Assembly: GCF_019649055.1 (NCBI RefSeq)
Contig: NW_026570240.1
Location: 434,001-498,000 of the forward strand
Source: Paramacrobiotus metropolitanus
Taxonomy: Eukaryota > Tardigrada > Eutardigrada > Parachela > Macrobiotidae
Direction of reading: 5' to 3'
DNA length: 64,000 nucleotides
Shown here: in pieces, positions 21,542 to 48,701 of the stretch
Layout: the number at the start of each line of letters is the position of its first letter
How positions within the stretch are numbered: the first letter of the stretch is position 1
Program-made: the position numbers and the translations under genes
The notes under the pieces: model-generated
The model's input: only the letters and a program-made list of their open reading frames with translations
Databases searched by the model: none
Told to the model about the DNA's origin: nothing

Positions 21542-24500
21542 ATGGATTCTCAAGCATGCTTCACGTCACCCATCGGACTGACCAATCAGAGCGCGGCATT
21601 TTCTTCCTTTGCGCGCAACTTTCCCCGTTTACTGCAGCCATCCTACGACGTGCATTCCTATTCTCCTGACAAGGAGGAAAAAGAGCTCTTTCTGAGCCAC
21701 TCCGAACACAACAAATATGTGTTATCAGAATGCGGCAACTGCGATAAGACGCAATAGTGAGTTCCTGAACATAGGCTCCAATAACGGCGGCTGCGTCGTG
21801 GGCGGCGTTGATAACGGCAGCAATATGAGTGTGCCGGCCGGAAGTCGAACCCCCCACGAAGTTAATGGCGGTGAACCGACCAACTTGTCGGTCAAGATTC
21901 CGCCTGCTGACGCACAAGCCACAACCAATCAGAGTAACACCGGAACACGCCTCAGTTTACGCGAGATCTTGCAGAACAACAAACCCGAAGAATGTGACGA
22001 CATTCAGTCGAACGCCGATGACCATCACGATAACGCCAGCCATGTGGATTCCTTTTCTGAGAATGAGAGTGACGATGATATGGGTAATAAGCCGGAAGAG
22101 AACGGAGCGAGCCTGACAATGGGCGCGATTATGGGAAACGGGGAAAGCATGTCAGAAAACGGTAGCGATGTACAGATGAAGAAAAGCCGAGTGGAAAGCA
22201 TTGTCTCCAGTATTCGTGCACCATCAAACGGCACCTCCTCATCCGGAAAACTCGGAAAGTATCGGCGGGGAAAGCCGTAAAACTAAGCGCAAACAGGTGT
22301 ATCCCAAGCAACAAATTGACAGTGACAACGGCATGGTGAACGAAAAAGATTTATGGCGGAAGCAACTGCTGATGATGCAGCAGCAAATCAACGTTATGCA
22401 GGAACGCTATGACAACCTGCCAAGCTTCCGTGGCGGCGGCATTAAACGCCAGCTGGATGACATAGATGGACCGGCCGGAGGAAACGACTTTATGATCCCT
22501 GTTATTGAGCGTGGCCTGGAGAATGTGCAGGTTAGCAATGAGGAAGTCAGGAAGTTGGCCGTGCTGATATCGGCGGAAATCCAAGAGCAAATCAACCCAA
22601 TTATCTCCTCCGTTTTGGCGAAGTATATTCGCAAGCCCAAGGAGAACGCCCCGCCCCCGGCTAAAAATAAGGCACGCACCCGAACGCCGACACCGGCGCC
22701 TCAAGCGGAAACACCAGCCCGATCGCCCTCGGTGGCCAGTCAGGCCGTGCGCGCGGTGAAAATCGAGCGAACCAAACAACCAGTCAACCAGCTGCCCGGC
22801 GAAATGGTTCACACCAACAAGCACTTCACTCCGCTGTACAGTATGGGTTTTCCGCCCCGACCGTTCTTCAGTAACGAAAGCAAACTGGGCAATGATTTCT
22901 TCAGTATGTCGCACTTTGCGGCCGCGGCCATGGCGTCCGCCGCGCCCACCATGTACAATCCGCATTTTCAGAATTTCCTCCGACCCGGTTCTACCCGGAA
23001 CAGACAGGAGGCCATTCCGCTGGTGGTCTCACAGAAAAAGAAGCGTCATAAGGTCACCGATACGCGCATCACACCGCGCGTAATGAGTAAAGTGATGAAC
23101 CAGAAGGAGGAGTTGGTGTCCGACAACCGCAAATTCCTCCCGTCGTCCCCAAATGCGGTCAACGGCGCCGTGCACATGGGTTTCAGCGCCAGTAGCCATC
23201 CGTTGCTGGCACGATCTCTGGCGACGCAGAGTGCACTGAATCATTCCGAATCATCGGCCTTCCATCCGTCGGGATTGGATGTCAGTCGAACACTGTTACC
23301 GGCGGGCGGCGGTAACTTTTACGCCCACCCCGGACTGGACAGGCGGGATGTAGTCAGTCCGACAGAGAACAGTATGGAAAACGGAAGTAACGACATGAAT
23401 GAACAGAACTCGCTGGACGGAAGCGACTCCGCTACCGAAATATCCGGTGGTCGCCAGCCAAGTGCTCCTTTTCCTTCGAGAGGTACGCAAAAGCTTTTGG
23501 TCATTGATGCATGCGTTCGTATGTACTGTATATCCTTTCAAATCAGATCAGCAACAAACAAGCAAGAAATTCCATTCTTGCACCCATAGCGTCAAAAATT
23601 TACCGCGCTTGTGCGTTGACTGTGAAACACTTAACGTTTCACAGCCGGGAAACGCCCAAAAGATACCAATACAAGCAACATCAACCTATCTGTCTGTACC
23701 TTAACCTTAATTTGCTAATCATGGCGTTCTTACGTAGACGGGGCACACCAGTTTATAATTAAAAGAAAACGACTTACGTAAAAATATGGAAAACCGGGTT
23801 TAGGTTGTTATTGATTTACTTATTTAATTTCGTCACCCCATAACCGATGACGTAAGCTGCAAAATTAATGATGTAGACAACATCTTCGATATGAGTTTAA
23901 GTTCGAAATCAATCGCGCACTCTCTGGATAGACAAATGTTTCAGGTAATTTTTCACTGAAGTACGAAATTTCGGTATGACTGTTAATTCTTTTGCTAATA
24001 AGACAATCAATGTTGTGCGATTTTGGTAGAGAAGAAGTCGCGGGTAGCCGCACAAATGGCTCATCTTTTATTAGACATGTCGATCGAATGCATAATCTGT
24101 TGTTGAAACGCATTTATGAGCAGGTAAACATGGTCGAATAAGAAAGACGAAAATATTTGCCAACAGTGAGCAATGGTCAGCTAAGTACACACGGGAGTAG
24201 GGGATGCATTTCAGGGATCATCAGACCGGTGCTCGTTGGTGTGTGAGCGCGGCACGCAATACCGACGCTGCACTGATGGTTGACCTCAAGATAAGGAGCT
24301 GCAGGTTTATAAATCGACAGGCATGATTGCAGGAAATATGAAGTGTGCCAGATAAACATTGAAATATTCTCATATTATTCCGATCAGGCGCAGGCGTAGC
24401 TGTGGGCTGGCTGCTGCATGAAAAGAGGAATCTTAAGCACAAACTGCATGAGCGCTTGTGAATAAAAGAGGCCACGCGACTGGCGTGCTGCCGCATCCCA

Positions 24501-25869
24501 GAGAAACATCTGCTGTCGCATTAAGTGCTGGCGTATCCTGCAGTTAAGGCTATGAGAAGAGAAAGCCAAGTTGGCAAAATGGCATTATTATTCGTGATAA
24601 AGATCATCTGCTCCTGCTATTCTTCCAAGGAGAGATGCAGACAGGAGTTTATAGTCGCACATTTGGATCGATAGATGCGAGCTGACATGGGGCCACTGGG
24701 ACAGCCGTTAAGGATTGTTCTAATCTTTCCCTTTAAAATCCCTTATTCGCTCGCTGACTCTCTCGCTGTCGGCAGCCCCGCATCGCGCATCCCATCCTGT
24801 GTCAATGTGGTGCGCGCATACCGAATTACCCATCCGACACAATGTGTGCGCCCCTGTCAGCCTTGAATTAAATCTTTTGTCAATGAAGAAATTAATATTT
24901 TACAGGCGATTCCCTGACTTTCGCCCACTCGAGCACATTAACGCCCATGCATTTGCGTAAAGCCAAATTGATGTTCTTCTACACACGCTATCCCAACTCG
25001 GCCACGCTGAAGACCTTCTTCCCGGATATCAAATTCAATAAAAATAACACGGCCCAACTTGTCAAATGGTTTTCCAATTTCCGGTACGTACATCACAAAT
25101 TTGTTATAACCAATAATATACCGAGCATACAGACAAGTAAGAACAGCATGATTTTTGCTTTATGTTTTTATTCGTCACATTAATCTTGGAAATAAAACCT
25201 TTCAGATTTTTTGTAAATGTATTATATTCGGTATTGCGATATTTTATTCTGGTTATCCTAATTCCTGATTCCTGTGTATAACATCGTAATATGGTGTGTG
25301 TACAGTTTTATCCTATTTCAACCCACAACAGAAGTTTCAAGTGATAGCAACGATTCGCGATTTATACACACAGCAAACGTTTTCGCGAAAGCCGGTTAAA
25401 CTATTGGCGTAAAGGTCACATAATCCAGTTCTTCTCACAGGGAGTTCTACTATATCCAAATGGAGAAGTATGCCCGGCAAGCCTTAGCAGAAGGACTAGA
25501 AAATGCCGACGATATTCAAGTCTCCAAGGATTGCGAATTATACCGGACGCTAAACTTGCACTACAATCGTAATAACCATATCGAGGTACAGTAAATTATC
25601 GCTTAGGAGTTTCTCTTCGTTCGAACCAGTGTATGTTATTAATTGTAAGTTGCATTATGGTAGCTTTGCTCATGAATCTCTTGTTCAAGGTCCCCGATGC
25701 CTTTCGTGAAGTGGTGGAAGAGACGCTTAAAGAGTTTTTCAAGGCGATCCAAGTTAATCGGGACCAGGAGCCGTCATGGAAAAAAGCCATTTACAAAATC
25801 ATCAATCGAATGGATGACATTATTCCCGAATATTTCAAGTCGGCTCACTTTTTGGAGCAACTTGAATAA
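21542..25869 (+). CDS. pros: Prospero/Prox homeodomain transcription factor
   Basis: Atypical homeodomain regulator of cell-cycle exit and neural or sensory differentiation. Exon 1 runs from about 21469 to 23482, with exons at 24906-25083, 25441-25585 and 25690-25869; their phases agree. The last three exons encode the Prospero domain: [15 protein letters not shown], the homeodomain helix [10 protein letters not shown], then [32 protein letters not shown] and a C-terminus at LEQLE, as in Prox1. Exon 1 carries the upstream Prox signatures [10 protein letters not shown] and a KRKQ basic stretch (nuclear-localisation-like), a Gln-rich helix ([10 protein letters not shown]) and AIPLVV. These signatures lie in two frames: frame A (21717-22280) holds RVESIV and frame B (open from before 22201 to 23482) holds KRKQ and the rest, so the sequence has a +1 break near 22235-22275. 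A third frame, from ATG 21542 to 21757, may be the true N-terminus; otherwise ATG 21717 is the start. Exon 1 is rich in Asn, Ser and Gly, and its middle is low-complexity. Confidence 0.93.
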
Positions 25870-26367
25870 TCCTGATCAAAAAACCCCCAACGTATCAACA
25901 AATACCGTCCAACGTGCGTTTCCCCCTTGAGTTGTACTGACAGTTTATTAGTCTCGTAAATTTTCGGTCAGGATTGTGGAGAATAGGAGATGCATATTCC
26001 GTCGTGATCTGAGAAAACCATTCCAGCAAAAATACAGTGTTCTTCGGTCGGCTTTAAATGTCCGAGTCAGTGAGACCATTTCATTCCTAAATTTTTGTTT
26101 CATTTTATTTGTGTTGGTGCAAAATGCCTTCGGTTGATTACATCTAGTCGCTGTCTTCGCTATCCTGTCTGGAAAAGAATGCAAGTGTTTATCGAGAAAT
26201 TTTCGGTTCTGTATGGTAATTTCTTGTTCCTCTTCGACCTGTAGCCTAATTGTGCGAATCCAGTTTTGTACAGAGTGCTTGTCGTTACTACGTATTTTTA
26301 TGTTTCTTCTGCACTGCTTCTTTGATCTGCGCGGTAAATAGTTCCTAATTTGTATAGCATTTGTGCG

Positions 26368-26373
26368 AATAAA
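26368..26373 (+). terminator. Candidate polyadenylation signal for prospero
   Basis: AATAAA lies about 500 bases after the prospero stop codon, in otherwise gene-free sequence (25870-26538). It is a plausible 3' end signal, but the motif is common in AT-rich DNA. Confidence 0.25.
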
Positions 26374-26538
26374 TGTAAATATCACTGAATTGCGATTCGC
26401 GAATTACTTAACTATTACCATATCGCGATATCGCAACGGCATAAAGGTGACGATACACATACCGCAAACAGTTTTGAAAATGATAACCGATCGAAACGAT
26501 TAAGTGCATGTTGCAAGCAGTAACAAGTACGAGCATTT

Positions 26539-26687
26539 TTATTTAGTAACTTTGGAAGCGAATTCGGAATAGTCTATAAAACCGTCATTGTTCGTATCGT
26601 CGGCCAACAGTATGGCATCCACAGTCGTGCTGAGTTCGCTTTCAGTATACATGCGAGCTACACCATCTATCACAGGAAGATCTCCCT
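26539..26687 (-). other. Alternative terminal exon B of the MCFD2-like gene
   Basis: The acceptor is TTTCAG. The encoded segment is colinear with exon A ([10 protein letters not shown], loop ending FIDYSEFA) but has a shorter tail, SKVTK, before TAA. It shares the incoming phase with exon A, so either can complete the reading frame from exon 2. It is probably a tandem exon duplicate. Confidence 0.8.
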
Positions 26688-28811
26688 CTGAAATTGAGAA
26701 ACAATCTGACCGAGAAAGTATAAAGAAGGTGATTGTGTCAGTTATATGTATCTTGCATTTGGATCTTAAAGTGGGCCAAACAAATTTTAATCCGCGAAGC
26801 AACAACACTACAAAGCAAAGCAACCACTGGAATCGTACTCGTACTGATTGCGAGATCAAGAAAGTGTGACAAGTGGAAGGTGTCGTCTTGCTACAACAAA
26901 GTACTGAGATCAAATTCCGGTACACATCCAGGTTTTTATTTTATGACAAAACTCTACTGTAAATTTACAGATGTACAAAGCACTGTAACTGTTTTACGCA
27001 CCTCGATCGAACAGTTATCACGAAATTTATCCCGCCAGAACTTTATTAATAATTTTCTGCTGTTAGTTAAACATTTGCAGTGAGTTAACTCAGAAACTCA
27101 ACTGAATGGTATTCTGCTTCAGTGCAAACAAATCAATTACGCTGTAGAAAAAATACACAATAAAACTTTGTCAAAAACGTAAGGTAAGCCAGCCGGTAAA
27201 AAAGCATAAATCTAAGACTGCTGCCTATTCGGATTATTTGGGCCCTGATTTCTGGTCTGCGAGGTAGCAAATTCGGAATAATCAATATAACCATCATTAT
27301 TTTTATCATCGTCCAGTAATATGGCATCCACTGTCATGCTTAGCTCGTGATCGGTCAGCATACGAGGACCTTTCACATCCGGAACTTCTGCAACGCATAC
27401 ATACGTTTAATTTTTTCCATAAAATTAAAAAAGAGCAAAGAAAGAGTAAGAAAAGCCTTGCAAATCTGTCATGCAGAAACAGAAAACGCTTTCTCTGCAA
27501 GCCTTACTGTTTGTTACAAACTAAAATACCAAAAAACCGCCATGCAGCACCGCAAACCCACTGGCAAGGTGCTCTGCAAACTGTTTCTACGAAATACGAA
27601 CCATGAACGTCGTTTCAGTTTTAAAAGCAGCTCAAGCTGGTATCTGGCCTTCACTACGCTTTAGTTAGCAGTTTGTCATTCAATTCCGAGCTGCGTAATC
27701 GTGCACCCATTATTGTTATTATGTTAGGAAACACAGAGCTTCAACTCCACTCACGAACTTCTTTACCTTCCACAACTAAATCCTTTCTTTCGAAAAGCGG
27801 ACCTAAATCTTATCCACAAAAAAACATCAACTAGAAATGTTCTCAGTCGGCGCTAAGTCTGTGAGCTCTATTAAAGTAGGTGTGCTAAAATTCTACAAAA
27901 TTCCTCTCCAAATTACATACGTAATAAGATGCAGTACTTAATGCGGTTACTGTGGCATCGCTGTTGCAGTACGCATTACGCGCGGGTTATCAGTTCCTTC
28001 CTCAAGTTGTTAAATAAGCAGGCAGAGTTTAAAATTCCGTTTATTGTTAAACCTGTGTTATTGCGAATAGGTGCCAGCCACTGTTATCACGTCATACTCT
28101 CGATGGTTAGGTTGTCCGAAACCGCTCGCTAACTAAAACGTCATAGCCGCAATTAATGGCATTCCGTTCGGCCGATCCCGCGAATGCACATACATAGCGT
28201 CTAATAACACAATTAAGTGAACAGATATGGGGCTAATAATTTACTGCAAGCAGTAAGCTACTAACGTACGACACAAAGCGATAAAGCCAGCAGCGATAAG
28301 GTGCGGTAAAATTCGATAAGGACAAGCTACCAGTTCCGGGATCATGCGCTTGCGTACAATAGTACAAACACAAACCACAGCATTTACAATGAGAAATAGG
28401 GTGAAGGTGTTAACCGTACCTCCGCCGTGATAATGCGTGATAGCATGGATCAGCTCCAATCCGTCAAGCTTGTTGTTGCTGTCCGTGTCATGGAGTTTGA
28501 AGTAATGGAACTGCAGTTCCAGTTCGTTCATATCTTCCGGTCGTTTGTTGGTGATGCCTTCTAAATGCTCTTGAATATGCCTAAGAAAAGGTGCTATATG
28601 AAACACAGAAAACTTTTCTGCACCGTCACGTGTTATCGTACGCTTTATCCTGTACGAAGGCCTTGTCGTGCATGGGATTCTGGCCAGGTTGTAGATGCGG
28701 TTGAGGAATTGGAGGGAGATTGTAGTTTTGATTACTAGCATGGCAGGTTACGTCTCGCAACACCAGGGCACACGCGCATATAAATAGGAGATTTATCAGG
28801 TTCAATATCAT
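26539..28811 (-). CDS. MCFD2-like secreted EF-hand protein, two alternative last exons
   Basis: Resembles MCFD2, the calcium-binding partner of the ERGIC-53/LMAN1 cargo receptor that exports glycoproteins from the ER. Exon 1 (28811-28642) begins with a hydrophobic signal peptide ([17 protein letters not shown]) and ends with the family's VQDK motif. Exon 2 (28580-28420) encodes [19 protein letters not shown] and the first EF-hand (loop from [12 protein letters not shown]), then AITHYH. Two different exons can follow in the same phase: 27387-27212 (EF-hand loop [12 protein letters not shown]) and 26687-26539 (loop [12 protein letters not shown]). Each has its own acceptor and stop, giving 168-aa and 159-aa proteins; both totals divide by three. 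The order signal peptide, EF1, EF2 and the length match MCFD2. Whether the partner receptor is present cannot be told from this window. Confidence 0.85.
27212..27387 (-). other. Alternative terminal exon A of the MCFD2-like gene
   Basis: The acceptor is TTGCAG. The exon encodes the second EF-hand ([10 protein letters not shown], then a loop ending YIDYSEFA) and a polar tail rich in Asn and Gln, ending at TAG. This copy keeps the acidic run before the loop seen in the family, and lies nearest to exon 2 (the intron is about 1.0 kb). Confidence 0.8.
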
Positions 28812-29774: not shown

Positions 29775-32700
29775 TTAAAACGTTGTTTCATATGCGCTTA
29801 TATAACCTTTGCTGTGAAGAATCATCAAACGTTTCTGTACGGCTTCTTTGTAGCGTTGCAGTATGGCCTTGTCCGGCTCGTTGTCAGCTTGCTGATGCAA
29901 TGAATGTAACAAGGTGAAGGCTGTTTCGTAGCGATTAAAGCATTCTTCCGGGTTGCCGAATAATTCATCCAGAGCAGCAGACTGGCACTGCAGGAAAGAC
30001 ATTAAATCATAAATTGTCATCACAAGGCTACTCAACACTTCCTCACCGCTTCCAACGCATGCGCATAGAGAATAGCATCCGCTGAAATATTGATAGTTTG
30101 CATGTCCAGTGACTCAAACAACTGATTCCGACTGAGTCGTTTAACAACCGCCAAACATTCCACATACAACTTATGCAATGAAGAGACAGCTGCAAAAACA
30201 CGGAATGAAGGGAATTACTAAAATATAAAGCGTAGCTACTCTAAATTTTATACAACACAAGCTTACCATTCCGCATAGAATTCGATGGTTGCAGCCTTCG
30301 AGAAGAGTACTCATTTCGCGCGTATGCCAAAGCGGTCTGTAGTATTTGCAGACCTTTCCAGTAAAGAACTAGTTTCTCCGCCCACCTAAACACATGTGAC
30401 CGTTCGATCAAGCACAGGACAAAAACCTTAAGTGCGCAGTAACAATTTACTTTTGACTAAGGCTGGTCACATTAAAGCGCTGCAACGCTTCCGTTCCCTG
30501 ACCAGCAGTCAGCGATCCCACATCTCCCGCAAACCGAATTGGTGTGTCCCTGGTTTTGGCAACTTCAGTGATACACTGCACCAAATGTCTGACAAAGATA
30601 AGTTTAGATAAGCACTCATTGTGCTCCTTCTCTAGCAAAATTTCTTGTGATAATTCCGGAGGCACCATATTCATCAGCTCTTCGAATACCGTTGGGGAGG
30701 CTTGGCTTGGAAGTTCGGAACCACTGCGGTTGCGCGTTCGGGCCATGCTGAGCGAAATTCTCCTATCTCTAGGCGATACCGTGGATGCTCTTAACACAGG
30801 CGATGTCATAGGAGCGGCAAAGGCCGGTGGTACACCGTATTCCGGCTGGGGAGAATCGGGTTCCAAAGGAGCGGTAACGTTGCCTAAAGCATGCATTTCC
30901 GGCAGTGTGTAGGCCCTCGATATTTTGGACTGAGACTGCTCGATTGCAGTTACGTCAAATATTCCAGTCACCGGTCGTGGCAGCTTGGAGAGGGCCGAAA
31001 TTGGTGAAAACCCTGAACGCGGTGAATCGGGCACCGTTTCTTCGGGGTTATGTATAGGCCGGGGAATAGAAACTATGCGAGTAGCATGGCTGGGAGGGGT
31101 TCCCATGCAAAACTGCACCGGAGGAGGCGTTAAGGACTCCAGCATCGGATCTGACTTTGGTCGGTTATCAAAATTTGGAAGACTAACTCTGGGAGGCGCT
31201 GACGCTGCAGGCAAAGGTGAGACTGATGACCGGAGCGGGCTCAAGATAGGTCTCGGTGACGAAACCATGCGCTGTGGAGATATCTCCTTCTGAACACGAG
31301 TAACATTTGCAACGTCTATTTCAGTTTCTTCGGGAGAATCAACAGTGGAAGGGACCATTTCATAGTCATCAGCGGATAATGAAGAGTGATTACTGGAATT
31401 CTCTTCGGCTTCTCTAAGTCGTGGCGCGCTTCGCTGACTACGCGTCATGGTTGGAGTGGCATTTGTTTCCATGACAGATTCGTGGAGCAGCTGGGGCTCC
31501 TTGACTCTAGGCACAGATGTGTACAGGAAGGGATGTACGAAGAAATCATCGAATTCGATCCGATCGCGAGGATTTCGTTTCAGGAGTCGAAGAAGAAGAT
31601 CACGAAACTCCGGGGAAGTCTTGCTAGGAATATTTGGCTTCAAATCCTGATTACGCTCATAGAACTGCTTCAGCTGTTGCGGATTGCTGGCCTGAAAAAA
31701 TCAGTGCAATGCGGTTTTGTTTAGACCCGTTTCTCAACTTTAGCCCACCTGAAATGGAGCCTGACCAACAAAACACTGATAAAGAATCGTTCCCAAGCTC
31801 CAAAGATCGGCTTTAGCGTCATAATGCTGCGACATGATGACTTCCGGTGCCATGTACATGGGGCTTCCACATAAGGTGGCAGCCTATTAGTGCCGAAAAT
31901 AATAAATTTTAAATTTCTTAAATAAATTGAGAAAACTGTCAGTTAAACACCGTAGATGAACATAACAAGGAGTGGGAAACATAATATGTACGCAAATTCG
32001 AGTGAATAAATGAGGACTGATTACCGAATTACCAAAGATTTCACCATAAACTCACCATTACACCATCTTGCAAGAAACGAGCAAAGCCAAAATCAGCAAT
32101 TTTGAGTTGTAAACTCTGAGGATCGGGGCGACGGTCCTTGTTGCTACCAGCGCGGTAACGTTCGTCGTTACAACACAATAAAATGTTCTGTGGTTTCAGA
32201 TCTCGATGAACTATGCCCTTCGATTTTAATATTCGAATAGCCGCCGCTAACTGCTTAGCGAATAACCGAATCGTATCTTCCGTCAAGGCGCCGCTTCCTG
32301 TAGTAAAAAAATCACAACAATGAAAGCAATTTTTCTCAAATAAAACGGATAAAATCCAAAAAAGGCATAATTTACTGATGCCATATAAAGCGTGTAGGTT
32401 GCCATAACCAGCTGCCGCGACTAAACATTTCATGGGAGCATACCGTGAAGATATTCGGACAGATCCCCTGCGTTGCAGTATTCCATCACCAAATAGACAT
32501 TTTGTGCACTTTCCTGCAATAAAAAACAGCGTATAACCCACGAAATTAAGTGTGGTGGGACCGCACATTTTAATGATTTGCAAAATTTTGCCGTCCAAAG
32601 GCATACTCATACTTTTGCCACCTGTGCACGTTTACATGAAAGTTCCGATATTACTTACACAAAACGGTATCGTAAAGACAGATGATGCAAATATCGGAAC

Positions 32701-33599
32701 TTACATGTTAATAAAAAATAGTACCTTAAAAAACCGATAAAATCCATATTACTGCGCATCATATTTCGAATCTCAGAAAAATATTTTCAAGCCGATGCCG
32801 ATAATAACAACCAAAAAAAAACGTTGAAAGACTATTGATAATTAAATTTTTCGGGAATCACAATATCAACATTTCCATGAGACGCCTTTTCTGCAACAAG
32901 TATTAGAAAGGTATTTACAGTGGATACACTGGTGCAGCTACTACTATTGTACTTCTCTATCACTCGTTTGCACCGGGAATATTCTTAAGTTATTGTTATT
33001 CCTCACTGCGTCACTGGCCACTCAAAATTACTATTGTAGTACAACAACATCATTTTTTCCCACTATGAATACAAAAATAACATTAAAAAAATTACAATAA
33101 TAAAAGCAAGGGTTGGCTTAATAATCAACATCTACAGTAACTGTTCGATAACTACACATTACTGTAATTAAAAAAATTACTGTAGCTGCTAACCTACTAC
33201 GTAAGCGTTATTGATTTATGTTGTTACTGAATTACTCACCTTGCAATCGAGGAGCGACACAAGATTTTCATGCTGCAGAGATGCTAACTCCTAAAAACCG
33301 TCTATGAGCGATTAATCAATTGGAAAACAACATCTATCCGTACCTTAAGTATATTAATCTCTTTTCCGAGAATGCCTTGAGACCGAGAGAGATTCTTCTT
33401 CGCAATCACTTTAACAGCCACGAGTTTATCCAGATTCTGCAACCATAAAAAAGCTATCGCGTTTAATTAAAAAGTAAAATCTACAAGCAGTACACAATAA
33501 TTATCATACCTTGTTGTGTCTGCCTTTAAAGACCATGGCAAACGCTCCATGTCCGATAAGATCCTTGCGAAAATAAGAATATTCTCCTATTGTCTCCAT
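29775..33599 (-). CDS. ULK: ULK1/2-type (ATG1) autophagy-initiating Ser/Thr kinase
   Basis: Kinase that starts autophagosome formation by phosphorylating ATG13, FIP200 and other ATG proteins. Ten exons join in frame to 798 aa: 33599-33510, 33436-33344, 33290-33240, 32513-32444, 32297-32056, 31883-31749, 31691-30451, 30385-30267, 30189-30047 and 29987-29775. The N-terminal kinase domain has [18 protein letters not shown] (Gly loop), VAVKVI (ATP lysine), [12 protein letters not shown] (hinge), [14 protein letters not shown] and MYMAPEV, and it ends at [11 protein letters not shown]-type sequence as in ULK1. The large exon 7 encodes a long Ser/Pro-rich linker containing DDYEMVP, placed like the ULK1 LC3-interacting motif DDFVMVP. 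The last three exons encode the C-terminal helical (EAT/tMIT-like) region, with [11 protein letters not shown] and SRRLQPS resembling ULK1. The start context follows an apparent acceptor (TTTGTGCAG), so an untranslated first exon is likely. Confidence 0.93.
32634..32708. repeat. Inverted repeat in ULK intron 3
   Basis: The arms 32634-32652 and 32690-32708 are reverse complements at 18 of 19 positions, around a 37-base loop. It sits in the largest ULK intron (32514-33239). It could be a small foldback element or an RNA hairpin; I saw no flanking target-site duplication. Confidence 0.7.
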
Positions 33600-34332
33600 C
33601 ACGAAATCTTTAACTGCACAAAAATAATGCCGTTAACGGTTAACAACCGAGGAATATCGAAAAAAGCTAAGATGTGGGACGTCGAAAACAATCGCCTGCC
33701 CGATCTGAAACCAGTTGTATGCAATCTGTGATAATCTGTGATTATTGTCAACAGAAAACCCTAAGTCAGGGTTACATCATAGCGATAGAAACTGCCAAGA
33801 TTCCATTCAATTTCATCCCCAAATCAATTACAATACTGCACGGATTTCATTGTAGCCAACAAACAATTGTAATTAGTTACTAGACATAAGTAGTATAATT
33901 GATTCATGGATTCCAAACGATGGTAGGCCAGTTAAAAAGCTACGGACACCGTTTATATCCCAACTCGCATTCCTATGATCCTATTTGTACGTACTGTAGC
34001 TTTACGAAACGTATGACTGCACGCTATGACTCACTCATCACATGTTTACAAACTTTCAGCCGTGCGCAGTCGTACGACCACTTTTTAACAAAATTTTCTT
34101 GTTCCGAAAAGTTACGACTGCTGTACAGTACTTATCATCGAATTTTATTTAAACGCTGCTTGTCATTTCCAGAAATTTTTTTTATCTGATAGCCTTTAAA
34201 TCTTCCATTTATGATAATTTAACAGTATCCTTAAGCATTGCGAAATATCAAAGTCGCAAATATGTAACGCTGGGTCAGTAAAGAATCTAAATCTCCTGAG
34301 TTGTCAGAGCGCGTGCTAGCGACACTGTCACC
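33600..34332. promoter_or_regulatory. Shared upstream region of ULK and ATG2 (divergent)
   Basis: 733 bp separates the two start codons, with ULK leaving on the minus strand and ATG2 on the plus strand. No other gene fits between them. There is no clear TATA box. The 60 bases before the ATG2 start are relatively GC-rich (GTCAGAGCGCGTGC). On the ULK side a splice acceptor precedes the ATG, so part of the interval may be ULK untranslated intron. That it acts as a bidirectional promoter is inferred from arrangement only. Confidence 0.55.
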
Positions 34333-37300
34333 ATGCCTTGGAACTTTCCTTGGTTGGAGTCCGTAAAAAAGCGTGCTTGTCGATATCTCCTGCAACGCTA
34401 CCTTGGACAATTTCTCAAGGAAAAAGTTGATCTCGACCAGTTATCTGTGTCATTGTTTAATGGTACAGGTGTTGTTAATGGACTTGTTTTGGATTCAGAA
34501 GTAAGCGACTAAAGCGTGACTTGTTTTGTAATAATGTAATATTTAATAATCAGTTATCAGCTTCTGCCTTTAGCTTCTCCTAGATGTCAACAATAGCAAA
34601 ATGTTAGAATGTCAGTTAAATTGATTAATTTAATCAAGTTCGGTCTAATTAATTTTTATTAAATAAATTGGTATCATTCTAAACGAAGTCTCTGGCAACC
34701 ATTGCCGAATGGAAAAAAAGATGTCATAAATCCTAATAATAACTAATATGTAAGCGAAAACTGTAACTAAATTTTTCGCCAATTATTTCTAGATATATCA
34801 AAAGTAAGAAAATTCTTGGTTTCAAGATTTCGTACTCGTAGGCTAATCGATTAAGCATGGCTTAATATCTCGAAATTAATTTCGGAAATTCAGCCCCCCC
34901 TCCAGCCAATAAATTTGCATTTCTTGTAGCTGATAAATGAATCCTTCGAATCCGTCAATCTCCCCTTTGAAATCGTGGATGGATACATTGGGTGCGTTTC
35001 TGTGGACATTCCGTGGTCAGCGCTCCTATCCGACAACACGCGTGTGGAAATCAAAGGACTCGAGATCACTCTCAGACCGAAGCGCGTATTCGAGAAATGT
35101 GGGTTGATTAGTCTAATACTCTAATAGTCTTATTTCGTATTTTTTCGTACATTATTACCTTATTATTGCATGTTTTTCGCACTTGACTTTTTGATTCTGC
35201 TTCTGACAGTGTGCTGTGTGATTACGTAAATATTCTAGACTAGCTGCTAAAATCGCTTAATGATGGACTTTAGTACTCATTTTTCACAGGCATTAAGTTT
35301 TTGTGGCAGTTTACCGTACGAGTATTACGGTTTTACGGTTAGAGCCGTTCGTATTCTTGCTATTTCTGTTGTTTGCTATTAGTGGGAGCGTGACATACTG
35401 AATTCTCTGATCGGGTACTTTGCAGCGGTGATGCTGGACTCGATGTGGGGCAGTATGACGAAATCGAGTATGCAGCTAGCAGAAGAATGCCTCCGAGAGG
35501 ATGAACGAGCGAGGAAAGCCCAGGCAAATCAATTAGAAGGGCTGGAGAAATTTGCTCAGGCGATTGATATTGGTAAAATTGTTATTTCTTGCTTTTCGCA
35601 AAATGCTTTGTCGTTGAAAGTTGTAATGGTGATTGCAGTGCTTACCCGGATAAAGGTTAACTTCAGCGACATTGTTGTCCGGCTTGAACAGGAGCAAGAT
35701 GGATTCAAGACTCGAGCGATTGCATTGGAAGTTCGTATTAAAAAGTAATGTTTTCGCATTGGAAATGCTGCGTCGCACTTTGCCCTCAAATACGCTTAAT
35801 GTTTTTTAGCGTTAAATATTTCGATCAAGCCGCCACAGAATCTAAAGACGATGACGAAACTGTCAACTACCAACCGGCAGCCGTTGCAAAAAAGTGTTTT
35901 ATTGTGGAAGGAGTGGATTTGTTTTCTGATGAATACACTTATCCCTTTGGCACCACCGAATCTACTTCCATGTTTCCATCTTCTCATGAAATTCTGGAGG
36001 TAATGTTTGCAGGTGTATTCCTGTGATCTTTGTGTGTTGTTGTTAACATTCTTGTTACAGAATTCCGAGATGTTTTACTCCGCCAGAGATTTGGGTACAG
36101 TCACCCGTCAGCCAGATATGGAACAGCAAAATCAAACACCTAAACAAACCAGCCAAAATTTAGTCCAAATTGCGGCGTGCCATGAAATGATAGATATCCA
36201 ACTGGAAGTGAAACAGACCGACGGGGTTAACGTTCCTAAGGTTTGCTTCTGGTTCTCTAGTTTAATAGTGGTTTGACCGGTCTTGGTAGAAGGAAAGCTG
36301 CGAAATAATTTCGGTTTTTTGCGTAAAGATCTGGTCATTCCCATTTCGTTATTGGAAACTAACTGGCAACATATAATTGAATGTGAACTTCCTGCTATCT
36401 GTACTCGTATCTGTTCTCCTAAGCTATGATTTTTTTGCTTAGTTCAAAATGAGTGGACATGTTGGGGTTATCCATGCGATTGTATGGCCTAAGCAGTTGG
36501 AAATGTTGAAGAATCTCTTCCGTGATATGTTCCCTGGAAGCATTGAAGGTGGGTGTAATTGTTTTGCAGAGCATCATAAGTTCGACGTCTTCCAGGTTTG
36601 TTGGTTTGATAGATCATGGCCGAAATAGATTGGAACTGCAGAAACCCATGACGACTTCCGATTATTCAAAGATAGAAAGCGAGTTGCAGCGAGATATCGA
36701 CGCTCGCCAGCATCTGACTCAAGGTGGCAACAATATAGAACTGGCCACGTGGAATACCGATAGAACATTGCGAGAAGGTGTAAAGCATTGCTTAAGTATT
36801 TGTCCAGGATTTTATCTATCGAATAATTTTTTTCTAGACGAAGAATTTTTTTCCTTTGACTCAAGGAGACTTTCAAATGATGATGGCATTCGTAAGTCGA
36901 GTTTCGAATGGGATTGTTCTTTTTTTAATCACAGATTGTTTTGTTTACAGATCGCCGACAACCGGGAAAATCTGTTACCGGTCAGAAAAGAATGTCCTGA
37001 CCTGTCCAAAGTTGGCGCAAAATTATTCCGTCTTTAATTTGTAGTTGATTCTTCCTTTTCGGAAAGGCAGCTGACTACCATCAACGCCGCAAATATTCGA
37101 ATCCGGGCCTTAATTTTGACAGTTGTGCAGGAAGACCCCGAGGGCGCTCGATCGTGTCCCAGTTTTCCATTCTCAGAGTACGATCGCAAACTGGATAGAA
37201 CAAAGCGGGAAATGCTCTGTATTTTACAATAATTGTGTCCTTTATTTCCCTGAATATTTGTAAATTTATTAAAGAAAATGTGTTTCTTGCGCAGACTGCA

Positions 37301-40300
37301 AAAGACTGCAAGAGACTATTTTTCTGCCACATCGGATGTATGCAACTGGGATTTCCAGGACACACTCTTGCTTCGACATAGATTCTCTAGAACCATTCCA
37401 CATGGACATTTATGGTAAAAATATTTTCCACTGTGGAAAACTGTGAAGCATGGTACATGGTTCTGAACAGTGCTGATTTCCTAGTATTCAGGAGACTGAA
37501 AAGATTTTGCGATATATACCCGTTTTCGGGTTGGTAACTAATCTCATTGCTTGTAGGATAAGCGCGTCTACGCTGTTAATAGAGTGCTCAGAAAAGCGCT
37601 CGACATCAGCCATTGTGCAGTCATTGAAATGCTCATTTGGTGGATTTGAAGCATGGGAGCACTTGTTTAAATCGGATGATGTAGAGCCCGAGCGTCATCA
37701 GGAGAATTTGTATCATTTAAAAACAGTGCCGCTGTGCACAGAGGTAACACAGATTAACCATTATTTTCTCTCTCTGCCTATGTGGTTTTGAATGCTGTGA
37801 AATGTGGCTTCAGATTCTTTCGTTTCCAAATCGTAATTCCGAAGACAGATATTCGTTTACAAGCTGTATCACTATTGAACTGGAGTCAACTGAAAAGGTA
37901 CTGGTTACAGTTTTTCACATGTTATTTTCCGATTCGCTGATATTTTTGAGTTCATTTAGGTTGGCGGGGCTACCTCTAAAACATCCAGTCAAAAAAACAG
38001 CGAACTGAAGATCGCTTTACAACCAGCCAAAACTGATCTGGATATTACAATTATTGACCGACTAGTCGAACTCTTTGCTGCCCTAAGTTTGCCCGACTCG
38101 GGTCATGATCTACCGGAAAACCCTTGGTCTGCTGGACATCCCGTGCGGAGGGTGAAAAGCGATGGATTGCAGATGAATGTTTCCCTTAGCTGTGTCGAAC
38201 TGACTGTTCACATAAGGTTAGCTGGGCATTTGAAATCAGTTTAAGATGAATCGGGTGCAGAATATTTCGATAATTCGCATTTCGCACTCGATCACTTCGC
38301 ATTTGGTCGTTTTTGCTGACAGCTCGCAAATGCGTGCAATTGTAACGATATGGAAAATGATATAGAAGTACTGTAAATGGTTTTGTTGGTGCAGATTTCC
38401 GGTCTTGGATTTGCGGCCCGCACGGGACAGGTTTCCTACCTGGAAACGAGCGCTACACAAGGAGAAGTTGATTGTGATCTTTTCAGAACTGGCATTTACC
38501 ACAGCTCTGGGCGACGAGCTTGTGACAAAACTCGATTTTAATTGCCGAAGTTTATCAGGTATTGTGGTTAAATTTTGTGGTCTTCTGACACTTTCAATAC
38601 CTACTGGGGTGTATTGCAGCTGGTTTTCAAAGTTCTGCGAACGAAAAACCGATCATGTTCCTCGAAGCAGAAATGGATGTGGATTACTCCATTGATGAAA
38701 AGAGGAGGAATGAGTTTGCAAATCGCTTAAAGTATGATAAGTGCTGATCATACGCCTGAGCGGAGGTCGCGGCCATAACAAATGCGTTTGCAGGTTGGGC
38801 ATAATTTTGCGGAAGTTTCCTCGAAATGTCGTATCAGCAGACATTTTGGTTGATCATGATTACGATGGTAATGCAAAAGCCGGATCACTGGAAGATATCT
38901 GCGAAACCACAGAAAAAGAGCCTTCATTATTCATGACATCGAAAAATATTGTGGAACATGAAGAAATTGTAAGATTTGTGTTAATGTTACATTATTAGGT
39001 TGTATGATGTTTCATAGATCCTTTCTAGAATTGTGTCCAACCGGCCCGCTCCGAACAGGCATCTGCATTCAAAGACCACGTATTGTTAAACTCGGAGATG
39101 TCAATCGAGATTGTGGTTCCTAAAATAACAGCATTTATTCCGGACAAGAATGTTTTGGAAATTCTCTACAACAGGTAACAGCATTGCAACTTAGACAGAC
39201 GATAGCGCAGTGCATTTGTTTAGAAATGTTTTTTTACAGAATTAACACTGATCTTCTTCTGTGGGAGCCAGCTGGGCCAGCATCCGGGCAGCAGGTGATA
39301 CCGCTAAGTGCGGCTCACCTGATGGGACGGAATTCGCTTGATAATGGTCCAGTCATGTTTGAAATGTGCAAGAGCGCAGCTGGTAACACTGCTTTTAACC
39401 TAATTTGGACAACCTTTGCACTGTTATGTTTCTTAGATTCAGATACCGGCTCTGATATCGACGATGAGGAAAACTGGGATCATGCGCAACGCATAAACAA
39501 ATTGAAAGCCAGTGGATTGTCGAAATATCGTGCTCAAATCCCCAGCGAAGTTTGCGTCGTTCTCAACATTGGTAATGCCTCCGTGGGAGCGAAAATTGGG
39601 GTAACTAGTGAAATACTTTATAAAGTAATCCATCAGGGGCTACATCGGGTTAATTCAAAAACTTATGCATGGTGTAGAAACACGGAGAGCGCCGAGCACA
39701 TGAAGCTTGGGTGGAAATTAGTCGAGGAAGTATTTTCAGTGTTAGTGGCTATCGGGGACAGCCGGAAATCCGGTATTCTTCAGTCAAAGTCCAGCGTCTG
39801 GAGTTATATTTTGGAGGTTTGTACCTGATGATCGAATGTCACTGTAACTGTCGTAAAAAGCCGCTAACCGAACGCATTTAAGCATTTTGCTTGTATACAT
39901 GCATGACATTTAGAGGTGCACTGAAGGTCAGTTCTTAAATATTTTGACAGATTTTGTTGCACCGGATGTACCGGTGGCGTCTCTTAAGCGACCGGCCCAC
40001 TTGTTGCCGGTAATCGAACCGCTGGATGATGAATTGCTCTTGGATTATGGAAGCCCCGACACACAGTTGGATGATGCGTGCATGCTTAATGTTGCAGTGG
40101 ACATTCATGTTGATACATTTCGTAATATTAAGGTGAAACTTTTCCTGGTACGGCCATGTGGCATTTGTAAACGTTTATATGCACTTTTAGGATATAAAAG
40201 TTGCTTTGGAACTGAACGCTCTGCGAATGCATTATAGAGTAACCCTCCCTGATGATTTTTGGCTGACACAGGTATATTTTTCGAACTGGGGACCGATTGG

Positions 40301-43300
40301 TGACACTGAAACAACCCGTTCTACCGTTATTTTGCAGTTCATCGAATATTTGAATTTACGAGATTTTCCTGTGATGGGATACAATAGTCCAACCATAATT
40401 ACGGAATTTCATCTGTCAATAGGCAGTTCAGCTGCGGAATACCGGTACTCATCTTACTCATCTAAATAAATCGAAGATGCTGCTTATATTCGTTTCAGCC
40501 CAAAGTACATGCCTTCCCCACTGGCCGCACTTGTAGCTGTGAACAAGTTGAACCTTTCCAGTACGTTGGTTGCGGAAAGCCCGCAGACCCTTCTTCGAGT
40601 AATAGCTCAGGATCTGCGATTACATCTTAGTAAACGGAAACAACCTGCTAAATTGAAAGAAGGCAAGACTTTTTTGCGCAACATAATAAAAAATTGTCTT
40701 TTTCTGAGCACGTGTTTTACAGATTATGTCTGCGTTTTGGATATTCCATTCATGGAGTTTCAGGTTAAAATTGCAGAAGGAAGTCCAGTAAGTCAGTCCA
40801 GTTCGGTTTTGAATATAATGATATTAAGCCTTCCCCACTAGAACATTGTAGTTGCGGTATTAGTATAAAGTTGTGAGTTGCAGGATTTTCCGCGCTTTGA
40901 CTTTCGGGCTTCTAATGATTGCTGCTACCTGCGGACCTGTTCTGATTCCTGCTTGGAATTGTGCAACTTGCTGAAATACTTGGCTGAATATCGAGATCTT
41001 AATATTGCGCCCGCAGCACCAAAGGTCAGTAGTTTCCTACCGATTGTAAAAACTCATAAATTAGTCTTGGTATTTGACTCGTTAAGAACTGATGGGATGC
41101 AGAACATGCTGTATTTAGGATGGTTACAAACTTACTTAATTTTTATTATATTGACTGTCATTGTTGGCCATTTTGATGAACTGTTTAAAATTTTCAGATC
41201 GATGCATTCCCGCGAACAGTCTCTCTGGAGGCTAAATATAGTCAGGATGAAAATGTTTTTGATGAAATGATGGATGCCATGAAAGAAAGTCCGCCACGAA
41301 GAGATTCTTTGGCCAAACATGATTATCCAATGCACACCCCTTTGCATGTGGCAAATAATGCCCATTTCCCGATGGCAGCCACAATCTCGTCATCACTTAA
41401 GACATCGATGTCGGACGCAAATCCGATTGATGATGATGATTTTTGTATTATTGATGAAGATTTGGGTGTTGGAATAGCAGTAATAAATTTTTGTATTCAG
41501 TCAAGCTTGTAGCGCTTGTGATGGGTTTTTTTTTGACGTTGTAGCCAAAGAGTGGGGAACCGGGCGTAAAACTTCTCACGATGGAGCCTATCCGAATAGT
41601 GGAAAATCATTTTGCCGTTCCGCTGGCCGTTACGGATCAACTCAAAGCACCAGATGGCTATCCATTGCCGATAGTGCGGGTGACGTTAAAGGAAATGTCC
41701 TTTGTTTGGTGCCTGTACGGAGGGAAGGATTTCGATGATAAGGTGGTTTATCCTCGCCGACTGAGTTCCCACAATCGACTACATAGTGCTCCAGGTTAGT
41801 CTGATTAAAGGGCTACTAGTCAATACCGCGGTGTAGTTGGGGCGTGGCGGAATTGTAGCTGCAAAAGAATAAAAAGTTAAAAGATTTTTTCCGGTCTTTT
41901 CGTCTTTTTAATATAAAAAGAATTTTCTGATATCTAAGGCCATGCGCGGGTGTTTTATTATAATGACATATCTAAGTGATAAGTTTCTCAGCGAATCTAG
42001 GGAAGACACGATCTAGCAGTAGATCAGACAAAACCGATGCCGGCCATTCTCCATCATGGTTGCTGAAAGGCGGAGCCGGTCGTGATCATTCCGTTCTAAT
42101 GGAAATTCATCTCAACAAGGTACGTCCTCGAAGATTGTAGATAACAATGGTATATTTTCTGCTAACGAAGTCTGGTATCTGTATATTATTATGAAATAAG
42201 TGATCCTGTTGTATCTGTTATTGGCTGATCATGGGTAACAAAGTACTTTTTAACGATGATTCCGATACTAGGTGAAATTCCAGCATGAACAGTATCCCTT
42301 TGACGGAAAAACTGTGAAAGCGGCCCGTCAAGTTTTATTCATTCAGGATTTTGAGATTCGAGACAGATTGGCATCATCGGAAATCAACAAATTTTTATAC
42401 CAATACGTTGCTGCGTCTATGCCCAAACAGAGCTATGCTAGCATGGTACGTTTGTTAATGATGTAGTTGAAATGCTGTTGACTAGGATCGACAGTGAATG
42501 CTTGCAGTTTTCAATACGAGCATTACACGAGCGACCTGATCCGGCTTTACCGATGCAAGAATGCACACTGAAAATTTCCCTTCAGCCGCTTCGGTTAAAT
42601 ATAGATCAAGAATCTATGTTTTTCTTGGGCGATTTCTTTGCTGCGCTTTCTGACACGGGGGCAGTTCCACCAAAAACGATTACTGATGAAGGTAATTTTG
42701 CCGGATAACACTATTTTAGTTAATGCTGATATGAATACCGTATGGGTTTTGTAGAAGACTTCTCTGAACGGTCGTCGCCCCATTCGGCAGTATCACAGTC
42801 TCCCAAAGATCAGATTCCCATACGAACCACACGACTGGGATCACTAGAAGAGGAAGAGATGTTCGCTCAGGATCCCCTTATTCGATTCGACGATGCTCCG
42901 AAGAAGGCTGCTGCTGATGCAAAGTTGGATGATTTATTGGCTATACCACCACCCATTCTAGCCGATCCTGACTCTGAAATATTTTTCAAGTCAATAACTT
43001 TTTCGCCGGATGTGCCTATTATGCTGGACTATCACGGAAAGCACGTAGATGTGGAACGGGTGGTACGGTTGAAATATATCGTGATTTCGCTTCATGTTGA
43101 TTGTGCTAGTACGTTCTTTGAAGGGTGCCCTGGGAGGATTATTAATTGGTTTGGCTCAACTCAACTGCACTATGCTCAGACTCAAAGCCCTACATAATCG
43201 ACAAGGGTAAGTATGTTGATTTTTTATGTTTATTGGATGGACAAGGATGGCAGTTTTTTTTAGAATTCGTGGATTGGATCGGATGCTTTTGGCCTTGTTG

Positions 43301-44292
43301 AACGACTGGTTAGATGACGTTCGGAAAACGCAGCTAGCAAATCTTCTAGCTGGCGTCGGGCCCATGCACTGTTTTGTGCAACTTGGTAAGAAACGATAGT
43401 AATTTTGGTATTGCTTGGATTGTTCCAGTTTATCGTTTATCCCGGTAGTGATGCGTCCGAGTGAAATCGTTATTTCGTTGATAGTTCAAGGAATTCGTGA
43501 TTTGTTTTGGCTTCCGGTGGAGCAATACAGAAAGGATGGACGTATCGTACGGGGTGTACAGCGCGGTGCAAGTGCCTTTACCACGTCGACATTAATTGCT
43601 GCATTAGAGCTAACCAATCGCATTATTCAAACGGTTCAAGTGAGTATAATAATTTTTATTGCTGTAGTTGACGGTAGTTCTCCTTAGGCTGAGTGCTAGT
43701 TCTGGTGATGTTTTCTATACCAACGATGTAAACGTGCTTGTAATTGCATATTTTTCAATAGGTTGCAGCAGAATCGGCGTATGATGTGATATCGCCAGGA
43801 CCAAGCTTCAAGCGGAAACGACGGAAGTCTAATGTGATATATCCAAAAAGTCAGCCTGGGGATCTGCGGGAAGGTGTTGTTACTGCCTACCGAGTTCTGC
43901 GAGAGGTATGGAGTAAATCGACATTTCACAGGCTTCTCGATTTTCATATAAGCACCGTTATAATACAGCTTTTCTCTTCTTAATTTGTGCGAGAGTGTTT
44001 CGTTGGTGAGATAATTTCTTTTTAGGGCTTTACTGATACAGCGCAGGAAATCGTTGATGCTGTGAGCGAAGAGCGCGAGCACAAGGGAATGACCGGCGCC
44101 GTGGGCGGGGCCTTGCGACAAATCCCTCCGGCTATCGTGAAGCCTCTCATTCTTGCCAGTCAGGCGACTTCCAATGTTCTGGGTGGATTACGCAACCAGT
44201 TACAACCGGATATTAGGCAAGACGAGTTGGAGAAATGGCGCACGGATGACGACGTACGGTCCGCGCCTAAATCACGCAGTAGTGACCGGTGA
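34333..44292 (+). CDS. ATG2: ATG2 autophagy lipid-transfer protein
   Basis: Rod-shaped bridge-like protein that moves lipids from the ER to the growing autophagosome. The ATG at 34333 opens with an ATG2 chorein N-terminus (RYLLQRYLGQFL, LDQLSVSL). Exons 34333-34500, 34930-35098, 35426-35572, 35639-35744, 35810-35999, 36061-36240, 36443-36548, 36613-36777 and 36838-36891 join in frame. Later recognisable pieces include SSMQLAEECL and GLEKFAQAID with RIKV (exons 3-4), VLDLRPARDRFPTWKRAL (about 38397 onward) and the conserved C-terminus: DLREGVVTAYRVLRE (exon ending 43902), then 44026-44292 with GMTGAVGGALRQIPP, AVKPL-like IVKPLILASQATSNVLGG and NQLQPD. Exons in 36951-43760 were seen in pieces but not all joined; one near 36951 reads into a stop unless it is very short. 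Length (10 kb, many small exons) suits a protein of the family's 1,900-2,000 aa. It lies head to head with ULK. Confidence 0.93.
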
Positions 44293-44691: not shown

Positions 44692-46245
44692 TTAGTTTTC
44701 TTCCACAGGATCCAGGTTTCTAATTGGCGCGTCCGCATCACCGGCACCATTTGTGGTCCGTGCATTAAACTGCGTGCTAACATCCACCATCTCTTTACCT
44801 GTATGAACAAGGGAGCGCCAAGGCTTAGCCATGGCACACTCTTCATGCGACTTTCCGTACAAATACTTGAAATTCCCTGGGAAAAAAATAAAAAAATTAT
44901 CACTGGGAAAAATTGCTAAATCTTACAAGTTAGCTGTATTTGCCAAATCTAAATTGTCAGCCATTTCCAGCAATATTATGGTAGACCTGTTGAGGCCGAC
45001 CCTAGTAAGGATTTGCATTCACAGAAAGTTAAATTTACCCACGGCGTTAGCAGGCATATCACCGGTTCCCAAGAGGCGACGCCCGTCTCCTTCTGGTCCG
45101 AACACCGGATAATCCGCGTACGGTTTCGACGCATGACAGGATCGACCTCTGGGTCGCGATGGCAGCAGACTGTATGGATGATGGTAGACATCGCGCATAC
45201 TGTCGCCTCCGCCCATTCGCAGCATAATACTGCTCTGCGACGCTTTCACATGGAACGGCCGTTTGGCCGGCACTGCGGCCACCTCTTTGACTTCCGGCGC
45301 CACACGCTTAGCGGCCAGGAATTCATCGGTCTTCACGTCCACATCCAGTTTAGTCCGGTAGCCGACCGAGCGACTCCGGAAGTGTCGCGGCAGAGTGGGC
45401 ACCTTGGGCGGGCGCACTTTCTGCGGCGCGTTACGCTTCGCGGCAATCTTACTGTCCAGCATGGCTTTGCGCTCAATGTGCGGTGTCCATTTGATGGGCG
45501 TACGACAGTCCTGCGCGAACACGCCTTCGATGCGGTCGCGTACGCATTCCCAGATGTGCTCCTTGCACGGCGCCACCCATACGTAGAAGCGGGTGGTGCC
45601 ACTCTTGCCAGACACCATGATTCCGTTGATGTAGTCGGACGTGTGAATCCAGGCTTCTTCGATGACCTTCAGACAGATATCCCGCCACAGGTGATCGATG
45701 ATTTTCGTGTCCAGATTGAAGCCCGTTAGCTGCATGCAACCGCCACCAATGTTCTCATGATCGTCCCAGTCGGGAACGATTATCCGCCGACCGAGACCAC
45801 CGCGGAATAACGCGTACTCCCAGTACACGGGCAGCTCGGAAGGCGGTTTCAAGCTGTTGTACATTCCTGTGCACATGTAAACCACTGACAATTTTGAATT
45901 ACAAATTGCCACTAGAAATAATCGTTATCCCTTTTGAGATGCCATTTTTGCGTGCGCTCCTTAATAACACTTACATTATTACAGTTTGTGATAGCGAAAA
46001 ACGCGCGGTTGCTACAGAGTACTGTACTCGTATTTAACTGCTAAAATTTTACCAACCCAGAACTGTTGGATTGTGGAGAAGGTGGCGACGGGGTGAATGC
46101 AATCCATCCACGATTTGTTCTGCGTGCCTAATTTATTTACAAGCCACAATGTCCATGGACTTTCCAGGTAGGTTTGGGTGGGATCGCGAAAGGAGGTGAT
46201 ATGGTGCACCGTATCTCGGCTGGGTAAGACGGGGGTTTGTTCCAT
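44692..46245 (-). CDS. eIF4E-family cap-binding protein with long C-terminal extension
   Basis: Three exons (46245-46053, 45866-45039, 44876-44692) join in frame to 401 aa. The core follows eIF4E: SPWTLWLVNK (family RWALWFF), KSW then FSTIQQFW (first cap-binding Trp and the FW motif), LKPPSELP, YALFRGG, PDWDDHENIGGG (family MWEDEKNKRGG, second cap-binding Trp), LWRDICLKVIEEAW and YINGIMVSGKSG, then FYVWVAP (third conserved Trp). Both tryptophans that stack on the m7G cap are present, which points to a class I type rather than 4EHP, which has Tyr at the first site. After about residue 200, where eIF4E normally ends, some 200 residues follow that are Lys/Arg/Pro-rich, including a segment from RPPKVPTLPRHFRSRSV and a last exon with SLVHTGKEMVDV. 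The start is the first in-frame ATG in exon 1; an upstream exon is possible. Cap binding is inferred, not shown. Confidence 0.8.
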
Positions 46246-47059: not shown

Positions 47060-48701
47060 TCAGAAGTCGTCCAAAGAGCGAGTACAAGGATTGCCCTTCG
47101 CAACATCATCGGCTTCTATAAAACAGTATTTACATTTATTTTTAATAAATCACATGTAAAGACCGATCGAACAGCCACTTTACCAGAATCGGCCGCCAAA
47201 TCTTTCGACGAAAGGTCAAGATCCAAATACGCGCTATCGTCTTCGATAGAGCCGTTTCTCCACCAGCCTGTCTCTTCCTCTGGGCTCACTCCGTTATCGT
47301 TCTCCTGAAAAATAGATGACGGTCTTGAATATCAATACAGTGGCAGTTCAATGGTAAAACATTAATTAAAGTTTGGAAAATATCGTGTGACACTTTAGAT
47401 GGCCCCTTTAAAGCAACCTTCAGCGTTAGCGTGCTACACAGGCACTGCCCTGTTGTTTTCGATTAAAACACGATATCTACAGTACGGTACAACACAGTTC
47501 TAACGTTCCACGTTTAAAGGACTCTGAATGTCTGCACCTTGTATATAAAACTACAGACGTGAATGACGCTGGCCTGCAATCACCATGCCTGTTTCCGATT
47601 CGGAAATCGCAATGCGAGTTACGAGATGGCCATTTATATCAACACGCGCACTTATAAGTAGTGAAAATATCATCTAATACGAATACAGAAGCGTTGTCCA
47701 ACAATGAACAAACGGATTTGCGACGAATTTATTAGAACTCCTATCTATATATCTGTAATTCAAGAATGAACGCTTTTCTGTTCACAGTTACATCGATCGC
47801 CTTTACCTTATCGGTTTCGGTACTTCCGTTCTCCACTCGAACCGCTGGTGTTCTTTGGGTACGAACATTTTCTGCACAGCCGACAAACATCTTTCTGCCA
47901 GCCAACTGGAACTCTATCTTATGTAAGCGAGACAAAATTTCTTGGTTTGTTGAGAGCATCTTCTTCAGCATCTCATAGAGGGAATTTTGAGTCACCAGTC
48001 CACCGTCGAAAGGCAGCGATGCTGCGGAAATGTTCCGCTGGGCAGGCAAAGAAAACAGCTGCGCAGGAGCACCGGATGCTTTAACCGCAGGCACACATGT
48101 CTGTTGAATAATTCAAATACGTACCTTATTTGCTTAAATGACAACCAAAAAAGATCGATGAAAAACCGTAAAAGTTAGCAGAACTACTTATAGTCACTGA
48201 TATCCGTACCTTCTGCGCAACAGCGCCGGTCGTTTTTTCGCCTCCTCGCTTTCGCTCACGCGGTTTTCTGCCACGCTTAACCGTAGTCTGTTTTCCAGAA
48301 GTCGTTTCCGGGGTGCTCATAATTTTTCTTTTGACAGTTCTCCCTGATCGGGTTTGGATGGCCTTTTCGTTTTCGGGATCCTTGTTACAGTTTCCGGTGG
48401 GAGGCAGCGTTTTGTTGTAGCCTGTGTTGCTGGACGCCGCCTGCGTAGCGCTGCCCGGTGGTTGCTGCAGTGTAGCTGGAACGAGATTGTACATTCCGAT
48501 ACATTCCGGCGCGCTCATCGTAGTTGTGCTGGACGGCTGGGAACTGGCAAAATGCGGTTGGAAGGACGAAGGAAACATCATCTGCGATCCCTGGAACGTG
48601 GGAAACGACTGGGTGGAAGGGAAAAAGGAACCGCAGAACTGTGGCGGTTGAGAAAACTGGCTGCCATGGAACACATCGTTCACCAACCGCGATCGTTGCA
48701 T
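47060..48701 (-). CDS. Unrecognised 320-aa protein with AT-hook-like basic region
   Basis: I do not recognise the family. Four exons (48701-48210, 48100-47807, 47304-47184, 47115-47060) have consensus splice sites and sum to 963 nt in frame. The N-terminal 90 residues are rich in Pro, Ser, Phe and Gln (SQFSQPPQFCGSFFPSTQSF). Around residues 115-150 is a strongly basic stretch with SGRTVKRK and VKRGRKPRERKRGG, which resembles an AT-hook (RGRKP) and a nuclear localisation signal. Residues about 205-235 (LYEMLKKMLSTNQEILSRLH) look like an amphipathic helix or short coiled coil. The C-terminus is acidic (SPEEETGWW, DSAYLDLDL). A nuclear, DNA- or chromatin-associated role is inferred from composition only. 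Exons 3 and 4 rest on splice signals and phase, so the C-terminus is less certain than the first two exons. Confidence 0.6.

Follow-up and report, generated by a model that had tools for sequence, protein, structure and literature searches.

Two predicted autophagy genes lie head to head in the stretch of DNA analyzed here, which spans 64 kb (positions 1-64000) and is referred to in full as the window: a ULK/Atg1 kinase gene on the minus strand and an ATG2 gene on the plus strand. The pair, its parts, and the segment that separates them are as follows.

33599-29775, minus strand: predicted ULK/Atg1 kinase gene of the ULK1/2 type; 10 exons, 798 aa; ATG at 33599, stop at 29775
31749..33599, minus strand: ULK exons 1-6, with the bulk of the predicted kinase domain (PF00069, residues 11-283), which ends in exon 7
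29775..30385, minus strand: ULK exons 8-10, with the bulk of the predicted C-terminal tandem MIT region; the MIT1 match starts at the end of exon 7
33600..34332, no strand: intergenic segment of 733 bp between the ULK and ATG2 start codons; GC content 38%; no coding gene detected
33613..33628, minus strand: acceptor-like site ATTATTTTTGTGCAG/T, 14 nt ahead of the ULK ATG; might serve a 5'UTR intron or act in trans-splicing
34333..44292, plus strand: predicted ATG2 gene; some 35 exons encoding roughly 2,000 aa; ATG at 34333, stop at 44292; splicing of small exons uncertain

The ULK model was spliced by hand, the gene-finder model having fused ULK with the downstream EF-hand-like gene and included doubtful kinase exons; joined across GT-AG introns, the 10 exons encode an open protein without interruption. 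In Pfam searches, this protein has a Pkinase match (E value of 1.8e-64), an ATG1-like_MIT2 match (E value of 4.3e-9; 37 bits, above the cut-off of 27.6), and an ATG1-like_MIT1 match (E value of 6.7e-4; 20.1 bits, slightly below the cut-off of 22.5), such that the C-terminal tandem MIT region of ULK1/2 (Atg1) is present, with MIT1 as its weaker half. Against solved structures, the protein scores 391 bits with ULK1 and 375 with ULK2 but only 188.5 with ULK3, a lead of about 190 to 200 bits, and the kinase is therefore of the ULK1/2 type. Like ULK1, ULK2, Atg1, and UNC-51, it joins a conserved kinase domain (184 of 273 aligned residues, or 67%, equal those of the ULK1 chain) to a C-terminal MIT region; it departs from the ULK1 chain by 12 additional kinase-domain residues, 9 of which fall around residues 144-155, and is otherwise ordinary. 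Judged by its predicted product, the segment 33599-29775 on the minus strand is a complete ULK1/2-type (Atg1/UNC-51) kinase gene. One of its introns (32514-33239) is 726 bp long, compared with 53 to 172 bp for the other eight. When the kinase was searched against genome contigs (578 confirmed loci), the 80 matches listed carried prokaryote titles at 27 to 34% identity, with no animal relative among them.

The gene-finder model of ATG2 has 35 exons and encodes 1,997 aa; hand correction of the boundaries of three C-terminal exons gives 1,995 aa, and other small exons (27 to 30 bp) are doubtful, which affects neither identity, start, nor orientation. Searches of Pfam and PDB, made with the model before this correction, returned an ATG2_CAD match far over its cut-off (E value of 2.2e-117) and, at the N terminus, a VPS13_N match (E value of 1.5e-11) whose 43.3 bits fall below the model cut-off of 80. 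The ATG2A chain 8kbx_B aligns in six stretches that run from residue 3 to residue 1984 of the 1,997-aa model (E value of 2.2e-231), and residues 3-260 alone align to it with 141 bits, placing a chorein-type N terminus and the ATG2 C-terminal domain within a single long protein. In its ATG2_CAD domain, its subthreshold VPS13_N match, and its correspondence to the whole ATG2A chain, the predicted protein resembles the lipid-transfer proteins ATG2A, ATG2B, and ATG-2, with no notable difference except lineage divergence, and by these matches the segment 34333-44292 on the plus strand encodes an ATG2. A query with the ATG2 C terminus had no match in a viral contig collection.

A first-pass annotation of this DNA had named the two genes ULK/ATG1 and ATG2, and both names are borne out by the Pfam and solved-structure matches. 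Its arrangement also holds: ULK is on the minus strand and ATG2 on the plus strand with their 5' ends facing, and the 733 bp separate the two start codons exactly. An unannotated gene between them would have undercut its idea of a link, but no coding gene was detected there by open reading frame (ORF) score and shuffling. The longest ATG-initiated ORF of the gap, at 89 aa, was rejected as a hidden gene because its coding score is -0.106 per codon (compared with +0.083 to +0.183 for 10 predicted gene models) and because its length is also reached in shuffled sequence (an ORF of at least 89 aa in 57 of 1,000 shuffles of the gap). Across the whole 64-kb window, ARAGORN found no tRNA and Rfam gave no match at gathering score; non-coding transcripts in the gap are possible. 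The gap and its surroundings hold a single direct repeat pair of 12 nt and two pairs of imperfect inverted repeats.

The acceptor-like site ahead of ULK scores 6.44, above both the median (5.34) and the 75th percentile (6.34) of 99 predicted acceptors in the window, and its sequence suggests either a 5'UTR intron or trans-splicing. If the site is used, the true ULK start site would lie deeper in the gap. Ahead of ATG2, the highest-scoring acceptor-like site (5.34) is 160 nt from the start codon.

The surroundings of the pair were annotated with a gene finder that had been trained on long ORFs from the window itself, and the resulting models were read with Pfam. They are intron-bearing animal genes (median intron of 112 bp over 99 predicted introns) at a density of about 1 gene per 6 kb, and those beside ULK and ATG2 are the following.

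164-5073, minus strand: condensin-subunit-like HEAT protein (gene finder and Pfam)
21542-25869, plus strand: Prospero-type homeodomain gene (domain confirmed by structure search)
about 26144-28747, minus strand: EF-hand-like gene (every Pfam match below cut-off)
44692-46245, minus strand: eIF4E-like gene (gene finder and Pfam)
between the eIF4E-like and caspase genes, minus strand: gene without family assignment
after the family-less gene and before the ankyrin-repeat gene, minus strand: caspase gene
after the caspase gene, minus strand: ankyrin-repeat gene (patatin match slightly under cut-off)
after the ankyrin-repeat gene, plus strand: small-Maf-type bZIP gene
last in window order, minus strand: BRCT-RhoGEF gene, which we take to be of the ECT2 type

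Several of these genes have features of their own. The Prospero domain scores 262.9 bits with chain 1xpx ("Protein prospero") and 216.4 bits with chain 2lmd ("Prospero homeobox protein 1"), presumably from fly and human, respectively, a difference in keeping with a protostome as the probable source of this animal DNA. The 16.5 kb immediately upstream of this gene (5074-21541) hold no predicted gene and are possibly its regulatory domain. For the caspase, caspase-6 and caspase-3 chains are the top matches among the best 60 of 110, a result that gives no indication of a nematode; gene density and intron size might nevertheless suit a clade I nematode such as Trichuris. Only the first ~115 to 130 residues of the searched 328-aa piece of the eIF4E-like gene match eIF4E, leaving a long tail without assignment, and the 306-aa protein predicted at 47060-48701 has no match in Pfam (E values up to 0.01) or NCBIfam (E values up to 0.1). 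A second divergent pair, at 57175-58300, is formed by the ankyrin/patatin-like gene (minus strand) and the small-Maf-type bZIP gene (plus strand), whose predicted start codons are 29 bp apart, or about 1.1 kb apart if alternative starts are taken.

Nine intergenic gaps are predicted in the window (29, 274, 399, 676, 733, 814, 1,049, 1,677, and 16,468 bp), a set that omits the EF-hand/ULK junction fused by the gene finder and whose smallest value, 29 bp, hinges on start codons that are uncertain. Because these gaps lie between 29 and 1,677 bp, with one 16.5-kb exception, a spacing of 733 bp is typical here.

Divergent arrangements are common. In the available text of PMC2670823, 31.6% of Drosophila melanogaster genes belong to divergent pairs whose start sites are separated by less than 1 kb, and the corresponding range for other eukaryotes is 6 to 55%. 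ULK and ATG2, on opposite strands with facing 5' ends and no gene detected between them, resemble these divergently paired genes (DPGs, treated there as having putative bidirectional promoters) in lying at the ~1-kb scale and, like the fly DPGs as that text describes them, in having no TATAWAW in the gap; the DPG definition, however, sets its 1-kb limit on the distance between transcription start sites, whereas the 733 bp here are measured between start codons. With a pathway named beforehand, and on the assumptions of 20 to 30 core autophagy genes, 10,000 to 15,000 genes per genome, and a divergent share of 0.16 (half of the fly share), about 0.004 to 0.014 autophagy divergent pairs at such spacing are expected per genome (i.e., in about 0.4 to 1.4% of genomes). 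The pairing is not trivial for a pathway set in advance, but this pair was singled out after reading and many pathways could have supplied one, and the figure is therefore unremarkable.

The reading that we favor, and consider likely, is that ULK and ATG2 form an ordinary divergent pair in a gene-dense, compact animal genome. Two unrelated, conserved autophagy genes would have been brought side by side by rearrangement, the origin of the pairing being presumably one of chance. Each gene most likely has its own core promoter inside the 733 bp; the two promoters could overlap or lie in common open chromatin, and any transcriptional coupling would be mild, as is usual for close neighbors, and not a dedicated switch. 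The typical gap size, the commonness of divergent pairs, the lack of a standout site for a shared regulator, and the different preferred factors of the two genes in Caenorhabditis elegans speak for this reading; against it is the low a priori expectation, and some co-expression would not surprise given the correlations seen in Drosophila.

In a stronger proposal, a single element within 33600-34332 acts as a functional bidirectional promoter that drives both genes and keeps initiation and lipid supply in step during starvation. As reported in the available text of PMC2670823, positive correlation is more frequent than negative among divergent Drosophila pairs with expression data (1,031 of 1,770, or 58.2%, compared with 404, or 22.8%). 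The geometry of the locus, with its facing genes and 733 bp between ATGs free of any detected coding gene, accords with such a promoter, as would a ULK transcription start moved into the gap by use of the acceptor-like site. So does a GTAAACA forkhead-type site that overlaps the gap's only CACATG-type site at 34038-34049, although each is compatible with chance (P values of 0.19 and 0.55). The remaining sequence evidence argues the other way. When 23 animal regulatory patterns in the gap were compared with 500 shuffles, none was significantly enriched: the lowest P value, uncorrected like the others, was 0.064 for TGATAA (3 occurrences versus 0.81 expected), followed by 0.076 for TRTTKRY (6 versus 2.98 expected) and 0.076 for the palindrome TGASTCA, which is counted on both strands. 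CACGTG, TCACGTGA (CLEAR), and TATAWAW are all absent from the 733 bp. We accordingly rejected shared starvation/TFEB control by motif, given a gap with neither CACGTG nor TCACGTGA and 0 of 23 patterns significant, and bacterial-type promoter matches (6 versus 2.3 expected) were set aside as uninformative for an animal promoter. In the window as a whole, CACGTG occurs only at 28627, 36746, and 40709, two of these inside ATG2, and is scarcer than expected (3 versus a mean of 12.7 over 100 shuffles).

Regulation in C. elegans, a comparison whose relevance hinges on the species of the window, likewise weighs against a shared element. In the available portions of PMC4804169 and the review PMC12005284, the two genes are predominately under different bHLH factors, hlh-30 for unc-51/atg-1 and mml-1/mxl-2 for atg-2; TOR knockdown nevertheless rescues atg-2, a rescue that depends on hlh-30 and that the authors of PMC4804169 interpret as compensation by HLH-30. 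The differing preferences and the TOR rescue together indicate, as far as those portions go, that matched control of ULK and ATG2 is no strict rule in C. elegans, yet that some shared input exists. Among the titles and abstract openings listed in literature searches, no genomic link between ULK and ATG2 came to light. The first-pass annotation regarded the two as unlinked loci in the animals familiar to it, and we take unc-51 and atg-2 to lie on different C. elegans chromosomes. On balance, a functional bidirectional promoter strikes us as unlikely. The first-pass annotation had advanced co-regulation by a shared promoter and tied it to survival of starvation or desiccation; that proposal, drawn from adjacency alone, may hold, but the sequence lends it no support. 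A stricter reading still, a kinase gene and a lipid-transfer gene held in a single lineage under one bidirectional promoter kept by selection, with trigger and membrane supply transcriptionally locked, we regard as very improbable.

Alternatively, the adjacency could be an old, lineage-wide local gene order kept for other reasons, for instance, because the gap carries enhancers of a neighbor such as the Prospero-type gene. Animal genomes retain some local gene order, partly linked to regulation (PMC8851819, in the sections available), and a 16.5-kb expanse free of predicted genes might befit a heavily regulated gene. Both the EF-hand-like gene and ULK, however, separate the Prospero-type gene from the gap, and we give this explanation little credence.

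As it stands, the locus contributes two complete, correctly annotated autophagy genes, and it is a candidate for gene-order comparison in animal genomes. Should the pair prove conserved and co-regulated, it would offer a natural test of whether autophagy needs transcriptional matching of initiation and lipid supply.
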